This document shows, in pieces, positions 17,099 to 19,117 of a stretch of 64,000 nucleotides of DNA. The position numbers and the translations under genes were made by a program. The stretch lies in the NCBI RefSeq assembly GCF_003318235.1, contig NZ_QOCG01000011.1:186001-250000 (forward strand), written 5' to 3'. Each line of letters starts with the position of its first letter. The first letter of the stretch is position 1. Under the pieces are notes generated by a model. That model was not told where the DNA came from. It did not search any database and saw nothing but the letters and a program-made list of their open reading frames with translations. The DNA comes from Loktanella sp. D2R18 (GTDB lineage Bacteria > Pseudomonadota > Alphaproteobacteria > Rhodobacterales > Rhodobacteraceae).

Positions 17099-17938
17099 TT
17101 ACCGGCAGACCGCGGGATTAACACGCAAATACCTAACGTAACGCGGCTGCGGAATCGAACATATACCATCTGGGCACAATGTTTCCTCTTCGGAGGACAC
17201 AATAAATGTCATTCTTGCCCCCGCGTTTAAAGCAAGATCATCCAGAACGGCCCCTCTCAGAGGAATATCGCGCAAATCAAGGCGAAAGAACGCAGGGCTA
17301 TAGGGTTGGTCGTAATGTTCAAAAAGCTCGGTGCGCCCGAAATAATCAACGGGGTTTCCCCATGTTCCCGCTACGGCATATCGGATCGAAGCGCTCGTTT
17401 GTCGCGGCCCAGCTTTTTGCGGGCATGCAGCGTCACTATCCCAAGGCTGAAATACGCCTTCGTCGACTGTCGTTGTCATCCCGTTATTAGTTGTTGCCTG
17501 CCATGCCCCTTCCATCACCTGGTAGCTGGTTGGCGTCATACATGAAACAAGCGTTGCATGGACAGACAGCTGCATTTGTTCAAGTGATTGATCAATGCGA
17601 ATTTGCGAGAGCGATCCAGTAGAAACGCGCCAGTCCTCGCCACACGATACCTCTATCCGGATTCGGTCTGTGCCACGCATTTCTTGTCGGTAACACACTT
17701 CTTCCACGGGTGCTGATGCGGATGTACGAGTACGTTCAAGGGCATCAACGAACAACGCGACGTCGTCTGCAAACAAGTCTGTCTTGAAAGCGATTTGTCC
17801 AATGCCATCGCAGCCTGCGTAACCTTCAAGCACGATTTGTTGTGCGAAATACGTGTTCACGGCCCCTTCTGGGATCGTGTCAGCAATGCCTACCGCCGGG
17901 ATGCAAATTAGGCTTAACGCCAAAATTTCACTTCTCAT
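17099..17938 (-). CDS. Uncharacterised secreted protein, cysteine-containing
   Basis: 279 residues, not recognised. A short Sec signal peptide is likely (MRSEILALSLICIPAVGIAD). The mature protein has about ten cysteines spread along the chain (for example GYAGCDG, EEVCYRQ, EVSCGED, LVSCMTP, AACPQK, ETLCPDGIC, NPAVCR), which points to a disulfide-rich periplasmic or extracellular fold. No enzyme motif, lipobox or membrane helix seen. Composition is more AT-rich than neighbours. Converges on msrB with a 25-base gap and lies 55 bases downstream of the riboflavin transporter gene on the same strand, so a shared transcript is possible. Confidence 0.6.
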   Translation of the reverse strand: MRSEILALSLICIPAVGIADTIPEGAVNTYFAQQIVLEGYAGCDGIGQIAFKTDLFADDVALFVDALERTRTSASAPVEEVCYRQEMRGTDRIRIEVSCGEDWRVSTGSLSQIRIDQSLEQMQLSVHATLVSCMTPTSYQVMEGAWQATTNNGMTTTVDEGVFQPWDSDAACPQKAGPRQTSASIRYAVAGTWGNPVDYFGRTELFEHYDQPYSPAFFRLDLRDIPLRGAVLDDLALNAGARMTFIVSSEEETLCPDGICSIPQPRYVRYLRVNPAVCR

Positions 17939-17993: not shown

Positions 17994-18857
17994 TTAGCCC
18001 GCTTCATCCTTCATCACCCATGCGCTGGCACCGATGATTACGGCGGCACCGATCCACATCATACCGGGTGGTGCGAAGCCGAAGAAGATGATCCCGAGCC
18101 CAACGTTGAGCGGCAGTTTTAGGTGGTCAAACGGCTGCAGATACGCAGCATCGGCGACCATATAGGCCTTTGCGATCAGGTATTGTGCGGCGGCGATTAG
18201 TAGGCCTGAGAGCGCGACGAGCCAAAGCGCCTCGGGCGTGACGGCGAACCCGCTGCCGATAGCCGCCACCCCGTTGATCGGCACCAAAAGCACCAAGAGT
18301 GCCAGCGTCAGCGTGCCCGCGTTTTCTGTTTTCGTAAGGTCTTTGGTCACGACAGATGATGCCGCCCAGAACGCCGCAGCGCCAACAGGCAAAAGTGCGG
18401 CAACCTCAAACGCATCCGCCCAAGGGGCCAGAATAATCGCGCCACCAACGCCACCAACCAGCACGGCCAACACGCGTGGCGCGGTCATCCGTTCACCCAA
18501 GAACAACCATGCGCCCAAGGTCACAAACAAAGGTGAGGTCAGGATAAGGGCGACAGCCTGCCAAATTGGCACAACGGCTAGCCCGGCGACCCAGAACTGC
18601 ACACCAATCGCGGCGAAGCCAACGCGCAGCAGTTGCGCCAAAGGCCGATCACTGCGCCACGGCGCCCGCCAAACCATCGGAATCACGATCACGCAGGCCA
18701 GTGCGTATTGCCAAAATGCGATCGTCGCCGATGGCACGCCGAAGCCCATGCCAGCGCCTTGCACGGCGGTATTCGCCCCTGCAAACAGCGCACCGGCGGT
18801 CACAAAATAAAGTGGCCCCATGATGGCACCGCTGTTCATATTTTTCGTTTGGATCAT
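17994..18857 (-). CDS. ribN: DMT-family riboflavin transporter, RibN type (FMN-riboswitch controlled)
   Basis: 287 residues, ten hydrophobic helices in two EamA halves, inner membrane. The start ATG 18857 is chosen because GAAAGGAT stands 8 bases before it; further starts upstream would run into the leader. The family alone would say only drug/metabolite transporter. The assignment to riboflavin uptake rests on the complete FMN riboswitch in the 5' leader (18937-19071), 80 bases from the start. RibN proteins of rhizobia and relatives are DMT permeases with exactly this control. The helix content and Pro/Gly positions (FLGERMTAPRVLAVL, start of the second repeat AAFWAASSVVTKDL) fit the family. 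Substrate is inference from regulation. Confidence 0.82.
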   Translation of the reverse strand: MIQTKNMNSGAIMGPLYFVTAGALFAGANTAVQGAGMGFGVPSATIAFWQYALACVIVIPMVWRAPWRSDRPLAQLLRVGFAAIGVQFWVAGLAVVPIWQAVALILTSPLFVTLGAWLFLGERMTAPRVLAVLVGGVGGAIILAPWADAFEVAALLPVGAAAFWAASSVVTKDLTKTENAGTLTLALLVLLVPINGVAAIGSGFAVTPEALWLVALSGLLIAAAQYLIAKAYMVADAAYLQPFDHLKLPLNVGLGIIFFGFAPPGMMWIGAAVIIGASAWVMKDEAG

Positions 18858-18936
18858 TGCATCTATCCTTTCGTTTTGCGCATGACCCAAGGCAAAACAG
18901 GACAGACCCGGCGCAAAAATGCACCTGATTTGCTCT

Positions 18937-19071
18937 ATTCTCTTTCATCCGGACTATGACCGTCGGCTCAGGCATCGCACCTGATCTGCTGACCAAGGGG
19001 AACCCCTTGCGCTCGCGGGCTCGTCCCGAAAGACATACCGCCGGTGGGGAATTGCGCCCCGCCCTGAGAAT
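18937..19071 (-). ncRNA. FMN riboswitch (RFN element) in the leader of the transporter gene
   Basis: Read on the minus strand the element has the conserved blocks in order: TTCTCAGGGCGGGG, AATTCCCCACCGGCGGT, GAGCCCGCGAGCG, GGTCAGCAGATCAGGTG, GAGCCGACGGTCATAGTCCG and GATGAAAGAGAA closing P1. All six RFN helices can be drawn. It senses FMN and normally represses riboflavin synthesis or uptake genes. Between the element and the ATG a TTTTGCGC / GCGCAAAA helix with a 29-base loop can form just before the Shine-Dalgarno GAAAGGAT, so control may be at translation start; no U-tract terminator is seen there. Confidence 0.95.
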
Positions 19072-19080
19072 ATGCCGCCC

Positions 19081-19117
19081 AAAAACAAGCGGCCCTTGCT
19101 AGTTAGGCAAGGGACGC
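19081..19117 (-). terminator. Terminator of bamE, just ahead of the FMN riboswitch
   Basis: On the minus strand GCG-T-CCCTTGC, loop CTAACTA, GCAAGGG-C-CGC, followed by TTGTTTTT. It lies 27 bases after the bamE stop and ends only 10 bases before the riboswitch begins, so the promoter of the riboswitch transcript must overlap or sit within this hairpin. Confidence 0.75.

Follow-up and report, generated by a model that had tools for sequence, protein, structure and literature searches.

The DNA analysed here, a stretch of 64,000 nucleotides (the window), carries on its minus strand a unit that is very probably a ribN gene controlled by an FMN riboswitch of its own, which would act as a translational off-switch on riboflavin import. 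The aptamer, the gene, its orthology and two mutually exclusive complementary stretches in the leader were observed in this analysis. The unit is an ordinary riboswitch-controlled RibN of a known family in a new host, a marine Yoonia; what is mildly unusual is that the single FMN riboswitch detected in the genome sits on the import gene rather than on a gene of riboflavin synthesis. A generically named EamA permease thereby becomes a confidently predicted riboflavin importer across many Rhodobacterales and Rhizobiales, and this assignment sharpens predictions of vitamin exchange for marine bacteria. The unit and its surroundings comprise the following features.

18933 to 19075, minus strand: aptamer of an FMN riboswitch (RFN element, RF00050), aligned over model positions 1-138 of 138 at 111 bits (E 5.4e-25)
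18858 to 18932, minus strand: putative expression platform, in which a UCUGUCCU segment has two possible pairing partners, the Shine-Dalgarno segment AGGAUAGA and, in its place, the 3' strand of the aptamer closing helix; from folding and 16 Yoonia leaders
17994 to 18857, minus strand: RibN-type DMT/EamA permease of 287 aa, predicted riboflavin importer; PF00892 E 2.7e-15, structure model, orthology
19093 to 19113, minus strand: terminator-like hairpin, 7-pair stem (5 G-C) with a T-rich tail; consensus match only

An FMN riboswitch directly upstream of a DMT permease gene

An earlier note, made from the letters of the sequence, had placed a full RFN element directly upstream of the permease on the same strand and had asked for a covariance search. 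That search was passed easily: with the Rfam model RF00050 the element reached 111 bits against a gathering cut-off of 66.2 (E computed for both strands of the window), every model position was aligned, and the permease follows immediately downstream. A chance match is ruled out by this score. The coordinates proposed in the note were otherwise right, except that their right end, 19071, lies four bases short of the 5' end of the aptamer at 19075. Compared with the RF00050 family the aptamer is complete and shows no difference of note, and its platform looks translational; from what is established for FMN riboswitches, it would be expected to bind FMN. The covariance search of the host assembly (G000; 33 contigs, 100% complete) found this riboswitch as a single copy. 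A consensus scan placed the terminator-like hairpin (19113-19093, minus strand) between a gene with a BamE domain, identified by Pfam, and the riboswitch unit, and a scan of the same kind found no sigma-70-like promoter for the riboswitch-permease unit.

The permease gene is the next gene downstream on the same strand and starts 75 nt past the aptamer. The ATG at window position 18857 was taken as the start because each of the nine Yoonia orthologues examined has it, 72-75 nt past the aptamer; a TTG at 18890 would give a longer frame but recurs at a similar spacing in only four of the eight other orthologues (five of nine in all), and it was rejected as the start. By itself the protein looks generic, just as the note had it: the Pfam scan, run on the sequence without the first Met, returned EamA only, NCBIfam gave only a sub-threshold match, and the search for PDB chains matching by sequence gave 0 matches. 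A structure model built from 43 sequences reached a mean pLDDT of 91.7, and among solved structures it matched the choline importer LicB best (TM 0.77), with other DMT-fold carriers next. By Pfam PF00892 and by its predicted fold, the permease is a DMT (EamA) membrane carrier.

A protein of 279 aa without a Pfam match is encoded further downstream (window 17099-17938, minus strand); its gene begins 55 nt past the permease, and the two may share a transcript. Among the loci compared, close copies of this gene are limited to two near relatives, with weak matches of 20-31% in three further genomes, and we rejected it as part of a conserved operon.

Leader pairing and control of translation

Two pairings are available to the UCUGUCCU segment of the leader. 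The segment can cover the Shine-Dalgarno site; alternatively, part of the segment and the UUUU just after it are complementary to the 3' strand of the aptamer closing helix, and the second pairing is exclusive of the first. Taken from just past the aptamer, the leader of the window forms the sequestor in a fold of -30.8 kcal/mol (z -2.75). Among 16 Yoonia leaders, standard pairs occupy 96.9% of the cells of the sequestor helix, against 39-50% with the partner slid, and 92.5% of those of the competing helix, against 40-60% with the partner slid; this slid control favours both helices, whose structures were derived from these same sequences. Covariation in either helix was nil: the 16 leaders contain no two-sided pair changes and the shuffle control was not exceeded, so the leader pairing is conserved complementarity and not covariation. 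When the closing strand was included, 15 of the 16 leaders folded to the competing helix, as judged by eye. In most of the minimum-free-energy folds a further helix covers the start codon in what should be the ON state, which complicates the simple picture of that state. Of 78 leaders of alphaproteobacterial homologues (from the best 80 of at least 407), 66 allowed a Shine-Dalgarno site and a start to be assigned; in 21 of these 66, many of the 21 being Yoonia, an anti-Shine-Dalgarno helix was better than expected by chance (at most 5 of 100 shuffles).

Because the leader can pair either over the Shine-Dalgarno site or with the closing strand, it suggests translational repression, and off-switching at the level of translation would agree with established knowledge of FMN riboswitches. 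At low cytoplasmic FMN, the aptamer closing helix would open and its 3' strand would pair with the CCUGUUUU stretch; the Shine-Dalgarno site would then be free, the DMT permease would be translated, and riboflavin, perhaps also FMN, would be brought across the inner membrane. Plentiful FMN would stabilise the aptamer and release UCUGUCCU, which could then hide the Shine-Dalgarno site by pairing with its AGGA(C/U)AGA, and less permease would be translated.

Since the leader helices do not covary, this translational model is not proven, and the same null result speaks for an alternative in which the permease is likewise a riboflavin importer and FMN acts through transcription termination or Rho. 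We consider this alternative unlikely, although not negligible, because the consensus scan of the minus strand from the aptamer to the start codon found no terminator-like hairpin, and the complement of the Shine-Dalgarno sequence is conserved in Yoonia. Expression of ribN in R. leguminosarum and V. cholerae is reported not to respond to riboflavin (PMC10012899), which in Rhizobium fits translational control and equally fits no control.

Orthologues retain the riboswitch

Homologues of the permease were collected by a scan of named genomes, and the best 80 of at least 407 relatives were used, at 48-94% identity. Of these 80, 79 have RF00050 upstream in the same orientation; in the one exception (L320), only 105 bases lie between the contig start and the match. 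In a locus from the Parvularculaceae (L310, 1105-2600) the FMN riboswitch is followed first by ribD and then by the permease; the stop of ribD overlaps a start codon of the permease, and the ribD call reaches 338.8 bits against a cut-off of 156.35.

The linkage was also followed within two genera, in genome sets that overlap with the 80 homologues and are not independent of them. A permease match at E <= 1e-60 is present in 16 of 56 Yoonia genomes, with the riboswitch adjacent in all 16. In a Rhizobium-like genus, so labelled because the permease of one of its genomes (G391) pairs with that of Rhizobium sp. S152 in the tree described below (94/54), 24 of 40 genomes have a permease at E <= 1e-40, and each of the 24 has the riboswitch 112-226 nt upstream. 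In three of the 24, G684, G692 and G695, the permease match is partial (two genomes) or holds an internal stop codon (one genome), each time behind a riboswitch above the cut-off; the defective matches are possibly decaying genes or assembly errors.

Placement in the RibN family

A tree of 71 rows was built from 21 riboswitch-linked permeases, a further 25 taken from the 80 homologues of named genomes, three Vibrio/Aeromonas proteins and 22 other EamA proteins. For the last group, 21 genomes in which a close homologue is lacking each contributed their best match, at 28-35% identity, and the host's own genome contributed one paralogue. The riboswitch permeases and the Vibrio/Aeromonas homologues were united on a branch with values of 100/99, apart from the 22 other EamA proteins, which are a selection from a much longer list of EamA matches. 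The riboswitch-permease group alone had values of 96/94, and several paralogue branches were very long. That the permease is a random EamA paralogue was rejected, the paralogue of its own genome being 29% identical and outside the clade.

In a plasmid collection searched at E <= 1e-20, homologues came from Vibrio and Aeromonas only (6 records, 41-45% identity over 96-99%). The V. campbellii homologue, 41.8% identical to the permease over nearly the whole length, is flanked by a porin gene and a glutaredoxin-domain gene, and the same neighbourhood is described for V. cholerae ribN (PMC5312566). The homologue of Vibrio sp. THAF191d has a glutaredoxin gene beside it and, in front, another EamA gene rather than a porin, and the three flanking frames scanned at the Aeromonas homologue had no Pfam match. 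No FMN riboswitch was found at these three loci, and gamma-proteobacterial RibN are described as having none (PMC4418817). From context and similarity, the three genes are probably RibN, and the 100/99 branch joins the permease by common descent to these riboswitch-free gamma-proteobacterial homologues.

With the RibN family (R. leguminosarum, O. anthropi, V. cholerae, A. salmonicida) the permease shares the DMT/EamA fold, the clade with the Vibrio/Aeromonas relatives and coexistence with riboflavin synthesis genes. It also shares the upstream FMN riboswitch, a described feature of the alpha-proteobacterial members, through which R. leguminosarum ribN was discovered (PMC4418817). This predicted importer differs in sequence, being about 51% identical to Rhizobium and 41-45% identical to Vibrio/Aeromonas homologues. 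RibN orthology has been set at more than 38% identity to the R. leguminosarum prototype over at least 80% (PMC4418817); our value of about 51% refers, rather than to the prototype, to the riboswitch-linked Rhizobium homologues L334 and L344. RfnT/CalT are likewise proposed alpha-proteobacterial riboflavin transporters, but belong to the MFS superfamily with MxxxM and HxxxM motifs, whereas the permease is EamA/DMT by Pfam and fold. Activity has been reported for O. anthropi RfnT (PMC4418817), and copper uptake, with riboflavin uptake not efficient, for RfnT/CalT (PMC6362234).

The proposal of the earlier note that the permease is a RibN-type riboflavin importer is supported by this orthology, and we hold to it because of the riboswitch linkage (79 of the best 80 of at least 407 homologues, Rhizobium included), the gene order with ribD at L310, the clade with Vibrio/Aeromonas in the tree and the neighbourhood of the V. 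campbellii gene. Riboflavin would be the substrate, given what is established for RibN. Many DMT proteins are exporters, and the fold search also matched DMT proteins other than vitamin importers, for example nucleotide-sugar transporters. Export of flavins, tuned by the riboswitch, is nevertheless very improbable, as FMN should turn an exporter on, yet the leader suggests an off-switch, and tested RibN-family members import riboflavin (PMC4418817, PMC10012899, PMC6362234). Slightly less probable still is that the permease carries some other substrate and acquired its riboswitch through a neighbouring rib gene: EamA proteins are diverse, PMC4418817 names two genes or operons that are linked to an FMN riboswitch yet have no evident role with flavins, and at L310 the riboswitch precedes ribD with the permease second, but at 78 of the 80 loci (best 80 of at least 407) fewer than 190 nt or so separate the aptamer from the start of the permease match, in Rhodobacterales and Rhizobiales alike, and the gamma-proteobacterial family members include tested riboflavin importers (PMC10012899).

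Genes downstream of the FMN riboswitch in Yoonia and its relatives

The usual single target of the FMN riboswitch in Proteobacteria is ribB or ribH2 (PMC3766115). Downstream genes were typed by tblastn against three references, of which the lumazine synthase clears an NCBIfam cut-off, and the labels given here are similarity classes. In the host's own family, 108 loci were sampled (109 places, two sub-threshold neighbours sharing one locus); the downstream gene was a RibH2-type lumazine synthase in 94, a permease in 12, the host's included, and other or unread in 2. The class sample, with 78 loci read of 82 places found, gave 42 RibH2-type, 22 RibB-type, 3 permease and 11 other genes; genomes G000, G044, G157, G306 and G368 are counted in both sets. 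At two class loci, L197 and L218, no rib gene or RibN was recognised past the riboswitch; by eye, one frame resembles a TonB-type receptor and one a membrane protein.

The 56 Yoonia genomes contain 44 FMN riboswitches, 28 before ribH2, a second lumazine synthase (L010, for example), and 16 before the permease (L001, for example). Both kinds of site occur together in two genomes, and 14 genomes have neither (Fisher p 0.0008, uncorrected for phylogeny). The ribH2 arrangement is thus the commonest in the Yoonia and family samples. The riboswitch-ribH2 units of alpha-proteobacteria (PMC3766115) have the same riboswitch and a single controlled gene; in the window, by contrast, the switch sits on the importer, and the search for lumazine synthases in the host detected a single one. 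In titles and abstract openings of the literature on ribH2 riboswitches or Yoonia riboflavin, we found no description of a split between importer and ribH2.

We tentatively suggest, at somewhat less than an even chance, that the FMN regulon of Yoonia has swapped partners between synthesis and salvage, with the switch on the importer or on ribH2 and seldom on both. Importer lineages, the host among them, would then have FMN-controlled import and a synthesis cluster without a detectable FMN riboswitch, and control at translation would explain why measurements of R. leguminosarum ribN expression showed no response to riboflavin. This genus-level pattern is of modest interest as a natural comparison, inside a single genus, of FMN feedback placed on import with feedback placed on a spare enzyme of synthesis.

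Riboflavin synthesis in the host genome

The earlier note had also suggested that import can supplement the organism's own synthesis, which fits the ribD, ribE, ribBA, ribH and ribA genes found elsewhere in the genome. On a contig other than that of the permease, nrdR, ribD, ribE, ribBA, ribH and nusB lie within 9 kb. The covariance search of the assembly found no FMN riboswitch near this cluster. The host is probably a riboflavin prototroph in which the permease is the sole gene with an FMN riboswitch. With TIGR00505 the cyclohydrolase half of its ribBA (L346, 6274-7482) scores weakly (47.6 bits, cut-off 205.85), but this half clears the Pfam cut-off (115.2 against 23.3 bits), and a second, stronger GTP cyclohydrolase II, a separate ribA of 198.6 bits, is encoded on contig C32. 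A weak ribBA accompanied by a separate strong copy resembles the case of Aeromonas salmonicida, for which a ribBA without RibA function is described (PMC10012899).
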